From positions 1 to 35,069 of the forward strand of contig JAJTDU010000017.1 of assembly GCA_021298725.1 (NCBI GenBank): a DNA stretch of 35,069 nucleotides. Reading direction: 5' to 3'. The translations under genes and the position numbers were made by a program. This stretch comes from Verrucomicrobiaceae bacterium. GTDB taxonomy: Bacteria > Verrucomicrobiota > Verrucomicrobiia > Verrucomicrobiales > Verrucomicrobiaceae. Each line of letters opens with the position of its first letter. Positions within the stretch are counted from its first letter, which is position 1. Positions 21,603 through 26,377 of the stretch are shown here, piece after piece. Under the pieces are notes generated by a model, which saw only the letters and a list, made by a program, of their open reading frames with translations, did no database searches and was not told where the DNA came from.

Positions 21603-22769
21603 ATGGATCCCTACTGGCAGCTTGCCCTCACCTCCGGCCTCGGCGCGGCTTTGATCACCGTCATCGTGATGCATCTCGCGTTGATTCCGTGGCGCAAAAG
21701 CGCCGACGCGCACTGGACGGAACGCGCCCGGCTGCTCAGGCCCGCACGACGGGTTTTGGCTGGTGTTGTCTTTGCCTGCATCCTTTCCGCCATCATCCTG
21801 CCGCGGCTGTTTGGACTTCCAAGTGATGACTCCGCCAGCTTCTGGCCTGTCATCCCAGGGTATTTGCTGGCCAGCTTCGTTTCCACTCGCGAAATCGAGC
21901 CGCGTTACCGCTTCCTCACCTGGCTGCACGAGACCTTTTGGCAGGTGCTCGTGCAGTTCGGCATGCTGGCCATCTTCATTTGGCTGCTGCACACGATGCC
22001 GCAGGTGCTGCAGACACGCGACTGGCTGCGTTTCTCCCTCGGCACGCTGGCTGTGATCGTCATCATCACCGGCGTGTGGCTGCCACTGCTCTATCTCTTC
22101 CTCAAAGCCAAAAAATCAACCGATCTGCGCCTCGAACGCCTCGTGGATGAAATGGCGGCGCAAACGAGCATCAAGCCCTGGCGTGTGTACTACGGTGAAT
22201 CGCCCCTCGCCCGTGCCGCTGCGCTCATCTACCTGCGCAGCCTGGTTTTCACCTCCCGTGGCCTCGAAGTCCGACTAACCGATGACGAGCTGCGCAGCAT
22301 CATCCTGCACGAGCTCGCCCATCTGCGGGAAAGCCTCGCTGTGCGGCTCTCCCGGCTCGTTCCCGTGCTCGCCTTCATGCTCATCACCTTCATCCATCCC
22401 GTCATGCACCGCTTTGGCAGCCTGGGGCTGTATGGCTTGATCGGCGTGGTTTTTCTCCTGCTAACACTCGCCAAACGCATCGCCCGCCGCATGGAGCATC
22501 ACGCCGACGACGCTGCCATCCAGGGCAGCCTCGAGCCTGCCATCTACGCCCGCGCTTTGGAGAAAATCTACCAAGCCAACCAGCTCCCCGCCGTCATGCG
22601 TGGCAACAACATGGTCCACCCGCATCTCTATGACCGCATGCTCGCCGCCGGCGTCACCCCTGACTACCCGCGCCCGCAACCACCCGGCCGCATGGCCTGG
22701 CCCGGCTGGGCGGTCTTGCTCATTCCGTGCGCCCTGTTTGCCTGGATGATGCTCCGCCCTCACGCATAA
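21603..22769 (+). CDS. Membrane M48-family-like zinc peptidase
   Basis: The 388-residue protein has about five membrane helices before the catalytic region and two or three after it. The zinc motif HELAH (H236, E237, H240) and a downstream EHHADDAA (E298, D302) fit the gluzincin scheme of M48 peptidases (HtpX/Ste24/BlaR1-like). It lacks an obvious sensor or penicillin-binding domain, so it is not a BlaR1 receptor as such. The C-terminal end is a single hydrophobic helix (WAVLLIPCALFAWMML). The frame is open far upstream; the ATG at 21603 gives the first membrane helix. The substrate is unknown, perhaps membrane-protein quality control. Confidence 0.8.
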   Translation: MDPYWQLALTSGLGAALITVIVMHLALIPWRKSADAHWTERARLLRPARRVLAGVVFACILSAIILPRLFGLPSDDSASFWPVIPGYLLASFVSTREIEPRYRFLTWLHETFWQVLVQFGMLAIFIWLLHTMPQVLQTRDWLRFSLGTLAVIVIITGVWLPLLYLFLKAKKSTDLRLERLVDEMAAQTSIKPWRVYYGESPLARAAALIYLRSLVFTSRGLEVRLTDDELRSIILHELAHLRESLAVRLSRLVPVLAFMLITFIHPVMHRFGSLGLYGLIGVVFLLLTLAKRIARRMEHHADDAAIQGSLEPAIYARALEKIYQANQLPAVMRGNNMVHPHLYDRMLAAGVTPDYPRPQPPGRMAWPGWAVLLIPCALFAWMMLRPHA

Positions 22770-22938
22770 AACGGCTAACCTTCCAGAGTCGGTCGTCCGA
22801 GCGATTCCTGCTCGAAATCGCCTTTGGTGAATCTGTCATGCGCGGATCGGCTAGAAGGCGGCTGAGAATCTGCTGGTCACGTTGGGTGAGCGGCTGCGCA
22901 TGAGGCATCGTGGCGAGAAGTGATTCGTGAACAAGAGA

Positions 22939-22978
22939 GCGAAGCAAAGTAGCCATCTTGCTCCGCAAGATGAGCCTG
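22939..22978. repeat. REP-like palindromic unit, copy 1
   Basis: A 40-nt unit begins GCGAAGCAAAGTAGCC and contains the perfect stem CATCTTG (22954-22960)/CAAGATG (22966-22972) around the loop CTCCG. Its reverse-complement partner is at 23040-23079. The outer sequence and loop are identical in the two copies; the stems differ by paired changes. Confidence 0.7.
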
Positions 22979-23039
22979 CGGCTTTCGTCAGATGATGACG
23001 CCTTCGAAATTCGAGAGCGGGGCATGTTGGCGGGCACGT

Positions 23040-23079
23040 CAGGCGCCTCTCACGGAGTGAGAGGGCGACTTTGCTTCGC
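23040..23079. repeat. REP-like palindromic unit, copy 2 (inverted)
   Basis: The reverse complement of this 40-nt segment begins GCGAAGCAAAGTCGCC, as in copy 1, and has the stem CCTCTCA (23046-23052)/TGAGAGG (23058-23064) around CGGAG. It lies 9 nt after the jetC stop codon and could act as a 3' structure for that transcript. Confidence 0.7.
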
Positions 23080-23088
23080 GCGATTCGA

Positions 23089-26000
23089 TCACTCCATCAG
23101 CTCCGCGAGGCGTGAGCCCTCCACTCGCACGACCCAGTTTTCGATGTTTTGGATCTGCTCAGTGTCTTCGTCGTAGCTGCGCTCGACGCGGCATTGGACG
23201 ACGGTGTCGGCGTGCTGGAACATGGTGGGCAGGCGGTCCTCGGGGAAGGCCATGATGAGCTGGAGGCCGAAGTTTCGCGCGAGGGCGAGGCAGTCGTCGA
23301 TGCGGTCGCCGCTGAGCTTGCTGAAGGCCTCGTCCATGACGACGAGGCCGAGATTTTGTGGGTCGTCGCGACGGCCGAGGTCATACACACGGCGGAAGGC
23401 GGCGAGCGTGGCAACGAAGAAGGGCGCTTGGTTTTCACCGCCGCTTTGCTTCTTGGCGCTCTTGTTGAGACTGATCGCCGCGGCATCACCGCGGCCGGCG
23501 GGCTTGGCCTCGATGTCCCAGTGGTGGTAGTAGCGGTAGTCGAGCATGCGCTGGTGGCGCTTGTCCTCGGGATTGTCGGCGGCGTCGATGGCGGCCATGA
23601 GCTCAGCCTTGGCACGCTCGATGTCCTCGCGGCCGGCAGCGTTGAAGAGCTCCATCTCGCTGCCGCTGGGCAGGCCTTTCTCGACGAGCGTCCAGATGGC
23701 GCTGTGGGCCTTGTCGGCACGGCTGGTGAGCTGGTAACGCCAGCCGCCGATCTCGTGATCCATGGCGCGGTTCAGCTCGCGCTTGGTACGGTCGGCCTCG
23801 CTGAGCTTTTCACGCAGCACGTCGAGCACCTGATGCTGCAAACGATCCTCCCATTCCTTCCGCGCTTCATCGGCGGCAGTTTTGAAACGCTCCAGCTCAT
23901 GCGTTTCGAGGTCTTCGCGGCGCTGGTCAAAGGCGGCGTTGTCCTCCGCGTCGGCATCAAGGGTCGCGCAGGCGGCGTGCCTCTTGGGCTCGCGTGTCGA
24001 GCTGAATGGCGAGCGCGGCGGCCATTTCGATGGATTTGCGCCAGCTCGTGGATTTTTGGCGTTCAGCGGTGATGCGGGCAGTGATCTCGACGTCGGAAAA
24101 GCCGTGCACAAGCATGCGCGAAGCCTGGCGACCGATGCGGGTCTGCTCTTCTTGGAAAACATCCTCATGGATGGCTTCTTCGAGTCGCGACTGCTCCAGC
24201 GTGAAAGCGGTGATGGCGGATTTGAGGCCCCCGATGCGCTCGTGGATGCCTTTGAGCGTGGCTTTTTGCACGCGGAGGTTTTCCATGGCCTTCACATGGT
24301 CCGGGGTGGCGAGCAGATCCCAGGTGGCTTGCAGCTCGCGAAATTCCTCGCGCAGTTTGGGTAGGCGCTGGACTTCATCGGCCCCTTCGGGCGCGGTGAA
24401 GCGGTCGAGATGGCCTTCAGCACCGCGGTTCAAAAACGCGCGGAGGTCATCGCAATCGCTGCGCACCTCCTCGATGACGGCGTCGGTCTCGCGAAGCTCG
24501 TTCTCACGCAGGTCGCGGAGGCGGCGTAGGCCTTCCTCGCCGAGCGTAAGTTCTTTTTCAGGCGTGAGCTTCACACGACGCGGCGGATCTTTGAGCCAGC
24601 CATCGAGCGAAATCGCCCGCTCGTGCTTGTCGAGCTGCGCGGCCTTGTTCACGGCGACGATGCCGCCGAGCAGGTGATCGAGCACTTGGCTAGCCACGTC
24701 GTGCTTGGTCTCCACCATCTCACGCAGCGAGCCTTTGAGGACCTTCGTGGTGGTTTGCGCGGCTTCGTCGGGATGAATGAGCGGCTCGTGCGGATTCTGC
24801 GTCTGCTGCGCCTGATCCCACGCGGCGCGGAAGTCCTCGGGAAGCACGGCGCGGCGATGAATGGCGAGCACGGTCTCGATGAGCGGCCACCATTTTTCCG
24901 CGCTGGCCTTCACCTCGACCACGCGACCGAGCGCGACCGCTTTTTGTCCGCGAGACTGCAAGGCATTCAGCAGCGGCGAGGGCGTGGCGTGGCCTTCGCG
25001 GAGTTGCGCGAGATCTTTGTGCAGCGCAGCTTTACGCTGCTCATGCTCGTTGAGACGGGCGAGGACGGGCTGGAGCTGTTCGTTCACCTCGTCCTTCAGC
25101 CGCATGTAGGCACGCGCGGTGTCGCGTGCAGCGGCGAGGGCGCGTGACTCGTCCTTGTGCTGCATCCCGGAGATGGCGGCGGAGGCTTCGTCGAGATTTT
25201 GCAGGCCGAGGCGTGAGGCATGCAGCGTCCAGTCCTGCCAGCGGCGGCGGTGGGCGCGAATGCGCTCATGCAGGCTGCTGGAGGCCGCATTGAGCCGCTC
25301 GATCTCGCTTTCGAGCTCGCGACGGCGGCGGTCGATTTCTTCGAGCTTGAAGGCTTTGTCACCCAGTGCGGCGCGGGCGGATTCCTCGGCGTGTTCGAGG
25401 CGTTCGCGCTCGCGGATGGCCTGCTCGTGCGCTTGCAGGTTCTCAGCGTGCTCGGCGCGTTTGTCTTCGAGTTCGGTGCGGCGGCGGTTGAGGCCTTCGA
25501 GCGCTTCCTCGTGCTTCAAAGCGTCGCTGAGGTGCGAGTAGAGTGCGGACTCGCGTTTCGAGGTGAGCCAGTCCTGATGATGCGCGGAGATGCGCTTCAG
25601 GCGCTCGAGCTGGTCGTACATTTTCTCCAGCCGCTCCTGCGCACGGCGATGCGCATCGACGCTGGCCTTCACCGCCTTCACATCCGGCATGCCGGGCTCA
25701 AGCAGGAACTCGCGCACGAATTTTTCGAAGTTGCTCTCCGGCTCGAAGGCCATGGCACGGGGCAGCGTCTTCGCCATCTGCTCGGCGTCGAAGCCGAGGT
25801 GGCTGCGCAGTGCCATCTCATCGCGGTAAGTCTGCTGGCGGTCCCACACATCGCCGTCGAGCTCTCGCTTCACGCGGGTGCGGAATTCATCCTCGGGCAG
25901 GAATTGCATCGCCTGCGGTCCGGCGTCGCTGTTGAGGAAATCCTGCCACGCGAGACGGCGTCCGGTGCGGAACCAGATCGTCGAAGGCTTCGCCGTGGGG

Positions 26001-26377
26001 CTTTCATACTCGATGCGTGCGCCCCAAGTCTCGCGACGCGGCTCCTCGCCGTCTTTCGCGGGCCAGGTGAACTCCAGCGCGGCCAGCGTGACGCTGCTGG
26101 GCCGCAGGTAGCGCTCCGCACCGTCGCGACCGGTCGTGTTCGTGTCGCACAGGCAGTAGCCGCGCAGGGAGCGCCCGCTGCCCGCGCCGGCGGCGGCCTT
26201 GTTGAACTTGCTCTGCTGCTCGCCGAGCATGACGAACTGGATCAGATCAAGCAGTGCGCTCTTGCCGCTGCCATTGGCGCCGGTGATGAGCGAGAGACCG
26301 GCCACATCGATGAACTGGCGGTAGCCATACCAGTTCACCGCGAGGATGCGGCTCAAGGTAATGCGCGGAGCGCTCAT
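23089..26377 (-). pseudogene. jetC: Wadjet/Mks-type SMC ATPase JetC (MksB-like), frameshifted
   Basis: One frame runs from the ATG at 26377 to a TGA at 23957-23959 (806 residues), and the protein continues in another frame to 23089. Removing one base from the CCC run of the coding strand (plus strand 23961-23963) restores 1096 continuous codons, reading RRLRDLDADAEDN across the junction. Walker A is GANGSGKS (33-40); long coiled coils flank a hinge-like region (about 480-620); beyond the shift are the ABC signature SGGEN (978-982) and Walker B LVVMDEAF (D1015, E1016). Without the second part the ATPase cannot form a complete head, so the gene as written should be inactive. It overlaps jetB by 4 nt (ATGA). 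SMC ATPases of this class load on DNA and extrude loops. Confidence 0.85.

Follow-up and report, generated by a model that had tools for sequence, protein, structure and literature searches.

The window analysed here, a 35,069-nt stretch of DNA from a Verrucomicrobiaceae bacterium, holds a Wadjet operon with JetA, JetB and JetC. In most of the relatives examined, jetC is followed by jetD. In the window, the end of jetC adjoins a pair of inverted 40-nt units, which an earlier sequence-only reading took for a REP doublet that replaces jetD and may mark a deletion site. This raises the questions of what the pair is, how it came to lie beside jetC, and what keeps its arms able to pair.

The whole element covers 141 nt (22939–23079). 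Its arms, at 22939–22978 on the forward strand and at 23040–23079 on the reverse strand, are 40 nt long and 80% complementary, with 61 nt between them (22979–23039). The inverted pair is thus exactly where it had been placed, and its identity as a REP doublet, with the GTAG tips pointing outward, is confirmed by the paired arrangement, a covariance model and alignment. Unit 1, an inverted-repeat arm that scores 63.1 bits with covariance model R1, has an A-type stem, CATCTTGC-TCC-GCAAGATG. From folding and pair counts, it forms a hairpin of 8 bp with a TCC loop (22954–22972, forward strand), and at the foot of this hairpin is the tetranucleotide GTAG (22949–22952, forward strand), which is kept in 13 of 15 aligned units. 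Unit 2, the opposite arm (55.9 bits), has a C-type stem, CCTCTCAC-TCC-GTGAGAGG, and carries GTCG in place of GTAG at 23066–23069; degenerate GTMG forms have been described (PMC3733652). GTAG directly at the foot of a hairpin, in a palindrome of the 20–40 bp class, is what characterizes a GTAG REP.

Read in the same sense, units 1 and 2 are GCGAAGCAAAGTAGCCATCTTGCTCCGCAAGATGAGCCTG and GCGAAGCAAAGTCGCCCTCTCACTCCGTGAGAGGCGCCTG, respectively, and their alignment has GCGAAGCAAAGT, CTCCG and GCCTG in common. They differ at three stem pairs, namely A-T versus C-G at 17/34, T-A versus C-G at 21/30, and G-C versus A-T at 22/29 (unit 1 first), and each of these differences is compensated on the other arm. 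The two units fold individually (z of about -1.5 to -2.7 for single units), and the pair also forms one long hairpin (z of -5.8 for the whole element, + strand); long folds were computed for other copies too. An Rfam scan of the window gave no family match above the gathering score.

A doublet family and its cognate transposase

Patterns and models were used to search the genome that contains the window, a 3.49-Mb MAG that is 82% complete. With up to three mismatches allowed, a degenerate pattern found eight matches on seven contigs, all of them one arm of an inverted doublet of about 140 nt, while the reversed control pattern found none. With a covariance model built from 15 units, 43 matches reach E<=1 and 40 reach E<=0.01; the sequence-only reading had staked its proposal on further copies turning up in such a scan, and it survives. 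Of these 40 units, 36 pair into 18 head-to-head doublets whose GTAG tips point outward, compared with about 0.03 doublets expected if units were placed at random; with eight pattern matches against none for the control, chance is ruled out. The spacings of the doublets range from 80 to 166 nt, with 13 of 18 falling within 101–105 nt, and there is one tail-to-tail pair and no head-to-tail pair. When the 18 elements are aligned, the spacer is conserved in length and variable in sequence. Inverted REPs at a preferred distance, kept arms, a spacer that is free in sequence and nearly constant in length, a long-hairpin fold, and a linked cognate RAYT (see below) together define a REPIN. The GTAG motif of the units, the genome-wide recurrence of the arrangement and the existence of two stem types as standing subtypes go beyond what had been read from the window.

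A REP-associated Y1 transposase, the partner that such a doublet led one to expect, is also present. The same genome has nine Pfam Y1_Tnp genes, one of which, on contig C173, is bordered by two REP doublets (L015:1254-1455 and 2118-2256) of this family and has the flanking REPs expected of a RAYT (TnpA_REP) gene. Its stop codon, TAG, falls inside the GTAG of a REP. Its translation passes the Pfam Y1_Tnp cut-off and includes NHVHL and YIAQNP, the HUH motif and the region of the catalytic tyrosine, respectively. The best NCBIfam family is NF047646 (REP_Tyr_transpos), with 62.6 and 71.4 bits against a cut-off of 80 for queries that were short of about 23 N-terminal residues. Orthologs with 70–88% identity in five genomes (G011, G024, G025, G012, and G005) are uninterrupted and have REPs on both sides, and those of G011 and G024 end in the same GTAG. 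In the C173 gene, an in-frame TGA (L015:2029-2031) stands near codon 20, where orthologs have TGG, which points to a gene that became a pseudogene recently or to an error in the assembly. Because its cognate RAYT is interrupted, the REP family may no longer be mobile in this genome, and the activity of the element in this organism appears doubtful. The RAYT of G071 also carries one TGA. The eight other Y1 transposase genes of the source genome (L009-L014, L016, and L017) are unlinked to this REP.

The link between the REP and its transposase extends beyond one genome. In a tree of 76 RAYT loci, all 13 loci that have REPs on both sides, which come from Verrucomicrobiota and Planctomycetota, fall within one clade of 17 members (bootstrap 97, SH-aLRT 97). 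Of the remaining four, two have REPs on one side and two have none; outside the clade, 57 of 59 loci are unflanked. This reading is taken from the tree itself, as the group table contrasts both-side with one-side flanking only; with unflanked loci included, the flanking label changes three times on the tree. Thus, flanking by these REPs is specific to one RAYT clade. Unit number follows the same partner: the median number of units is 40 in congeneric genomes that carry the cognate RAYT and 5 in those that do not (p=0.002). There are also genomes with many units and no close RAYT (45 in G016, 55 in G028, and 44 in G031), and G019, whose RAYT is 59% identical, has one unit only. With high confidence, the feature in the window is a REPIN of a GTAG-REP family that is linked to the RAYT clade of contig C173.

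Several known systems resemble it. Like the REPINs of Bertels and Rainey (2011; PMC3116915), these elements are inverted REP doublets with conserved arms and a spacer constrained in length and not in sequence, with frequent compensatory changes, tandem clusters, a cognate RAYT nearby, and lone units in the minority. By contrast, the REP sequence and the host phylum are different, and copies are fewer here (18 doublets in an 82%-complete MAG). With the GTAG-REP superfamily (PMC3733652), they share the GTAG tag, an 8-bp stem with a 3-nt loop, dimers with tips outward at 20–100 bp, sub-families with alternative complementary stem residues, and RAYT genes that overlap a REP at the 3′ end. Head-to-head heterodimers of GTAG REPs have been reported in the PVC group, where O. 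terrae and R. baltica are named, and the heterodimer type has been described for Enterobacteriaceae and P. aeruginosa (PMC3733652). The REPtrons of TnpA_REP/RAYT genes also have a single Y1/HUH gene between inverted REPs, and in their group 3 model of Stenotrophomonas a perfect palindrome directly follows GTAG, as it does here (PMC8266576, PMC6006769); unlike them, the present clade is known from its sequence. GTAG repeats and RAYTs have been found in the PVC group (PMC3733652, PMC6006769), and literature searches gave no account of this REP sequence. The kind is already known (GTAG-REP/REPIN-RAYT), and this REP family is a new addition to it, although one of the 24 families of PMC3733652 may prove to be the same.

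Taken together, the element is best read as a non-autonomous REPIN that was copied or moved by a RAYT of the C173 clade, settled between jetC and jetD, and has had its arms kept by recognition; we give this reading a probability of about 0.93. Most likely, the RAYT (TnpA_REP) would recognize folded single-stranded REPs by GTAG and the hairpin and would copy or move the doublet, one copy of which probably inserted at the jetC–jetD junction in a common ancestor of this genome and G009. The spacer has drifted since, whereas the arms would have been held, with their pairing, through continued recognition by the RAYT. That the RAYT cleaves and transposes these elements, and that its recognition explains the conserved arms, is inferred from the biochemistry of TnpA_REP in other bacteria (PMC8266576).

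Pairing of the arms

The sequence-only reading treated the three compensatory changes as independent events. Each is indeed matched on the opposite arm, but two of them are a family-wide difference between subtypes: in about two thirds of the elements, one arm has CCTCTCG...CGAGAGG and its partner CATCT[TC]G...[AG]AGATG, so that most elements are heterodimers. Most simply, these two differences would have been inherited with the element. The change at 22/29, from G-C to A-T, is the only one peculiar to this locus; among the copies read, it was seen in the window element and its ortholog in G009.

Nevertheless, pairing of the stem is maintained across the family. The exact-pattern scan left four positions free and fixed most bases, and covariation is therefore judged on those four positions only. 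At the free outer stem pair, AT, CG, TA, and GC are all seen; this pair is Watson-Crick in 53 of 53 units of a mainly Planctomycetota set and in 69 of 72 units in Verrucomicrobiota, counts that include related copies. The covariation score of the alignments of 15 and 99 units was equalled by no shuffle. Since position 17/34 takes any base pair, whereas GTAG and the CTCCG region hardly vary, the determinants of recognition can be predicted.

The same reading had gone on to conclude that the fold is under selection, and here the maintained pairing bears it out only in part, as covariation alone does not give the cause. Inverted repeats are prone to templated correction, and template switching could copy a mutation from one arm to the other without any selection; covariation thus proves that pairing was kept, not why. 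Such an origin has some appeal in these elements, in which the two units also pair with each other along the whole element, and templated correction of quasi-palindromes could contribute to the covariation. As a substitute for selection on a recognized fold, however, it is unlikely: four Watson-Crick pairs occur at one position in two phyla while most other stem pairs and the loop are nearly fixed, and the arms are conserved where the spacer is not. Recognition by the RAYT fits the covariation, and recognition and template switching may act jointly.

The junction of jetC and jetD

In the window, jetC is split into two ORFs on the reverse strand. The N-terminal ORF (23957–26377; PADLOC JetC1, 3.1e-81), aligned with open orthologs, and the C-terminal ORF (23089–24168; PADLOC JetC1, 4.5e-50; Pfam SbcC_Walker_B) overlap at 23957–24168, the frame having been shifted by a net 47-nt deletion near 23961–23968. 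The jetC orthologs of G009 and G016 are single ORFs. On the other side of the element, alignment with jetD of G009, G016, and G015 reveals a jetD remnant on the reverse strand, with approximate limits at 22762–22908, in which a 13-nt stub with the start codon (22908–22896) is fused to the 3′ end of the gene and about 1 kb has been lost. A further, smaller deletion of about 34 nt is found in the 3′ part of the remnant. The jetC frameshift and the loss of jetD suggest that the Wadjet operon of this genome has decayed, unless the assembly is wrong there.

Loss of jetD beside the doublet had therefore been noticed correctly, but the doublet does not replace jetD, and the idea that it marks the deletion is not supported. 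The REPIN is present at the same junction in G009, where it is followed by a full-length jetD (JetD_C by Pfam, as in G016), and the boundary of the deletion in the window lies about 40 nt outside the REPIN. Since G009 has the REPIN beside a complete jetD, the REPIN is older than the deletion. In effect, such an element settled in a defence operon that decayed later, and the REPIN hairpins might have helped to provoke the deletion. At this locus, the window and G009 are 94% identical in the REP arms and 74% in the spacer (p=0.0015), with 92% at the end of jetC; the arms have thus been held and the spacer has drifted. The junction is the single site at which presence and absence of a doublet were seen among congeners, as G016 and G012 have jetD and lack the REPIN there.

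That absence also bears on a role in RNA. A transcription terminator of the jet operon, or a hairpin that stabilizes its mRNA, would suit a stable fold directly after the jetC stop codon, and REPs are often found 3′ of genes (PMC3733652). However, neither hairpin is followed by a long T-run, two congeners that keep both genes, G016 and G012, do without the element there, and the same element is present on many other contigs, all of which makes an RNA function an improbable reason for its conservation. A local inverted duplication, or a recombination scar left by the loss of jetD, is far less probable still: the deletion adjoins the element, but its boundary is displaced, and the genome-wide family and the jetD of G009 rule out either event as the origin. 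As for a MITE of an ordinary DDE transposon, the inverted-repeat ends and variable centre would fit its terminal inverted repeats, but with a GTAG hairpin at each end and an HUH/Y1 enzyme as the linked transposase it is hardly credible.

At the corresponding junction of one relative, a different pair of inverted palindromes, TGCGGGCACTCCTGCCCGCA, is found (L212, G016:C1:1360027-1360082). It has 28 copies in G016, nine in G011, and none in G009 or the genome of the window. The junction between jetC and jetD seems to have taken in two unrelated repeat families.

Sharing between two phyla

Units of this family are present in 28 of the 35 genomes of the window's genus and in none of 21 genomes from other genera of the order. 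Among the matches listed when named genomes were scanned for the exact core, there are Prosthecobacter, other Verrucomicrobiaceae, many Planctomycetota (for instance, Schlesneria, Gemmataceae, and Pirellulaceae), and a few others. The Planctomycetota genomes tested have 12–61 units each, and one named Lentisphaerae genome has 55. In Planctomycetota, too, the units are arranged as inverted doublets, often with a distance of about 100 nt, and they flank both sides of RAYTs that belong to the same 17-member clade. These RAYTs were obtained from whole-genome searches, as tblastn against the loci of the pattern scan found RAYTs in two Prosthecobacter loci only. Linkage thus identifies the cognate transposase clade of this REP family in many genomes of two phyla, which makes REP-RAYT co-evolution testable.

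How two phyla came to share it admits two answers. The REPIN-RAYT lineage, that is, the REP core AAAGTAGCCNTCTCGCTCCGCGAGANG with its RAYT clade, may have moved between phyla as a unit that kept its REP recognition, a tentative proposal to which we give somewhat less than even odds. The alternative is old inheritance with loss. In an AU test, a single clade of the Planctomycetota RAYTs was not rejected (p 0.25), so that their nesting, and hence the direction of any transfer, is left unfixed by the tree. The usual account of RAYTs is one of vertical inheritance (PMC8049555), and the patchy distribution of tnpA_REP has been ascribed to transfer and loss (PMC6006769). Transfer between phyla, if true, would run against the usual view of RAYTs as inherited vertically over very long periods.

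Two minor observations concern single genomes. An Opitutaceae MAG, F1-140, has one doublet very like those of Prosthecobacter (L179), with four units in the genome and no close RAYT; it is either a transferred copy or a misbinned contig. In G025, four units on the same strand follow one another in steps of about 234 nt (G025:C12:131175-131916). These are probably a tandem REPIN array, a type of arrangement known from P. fluorescens.
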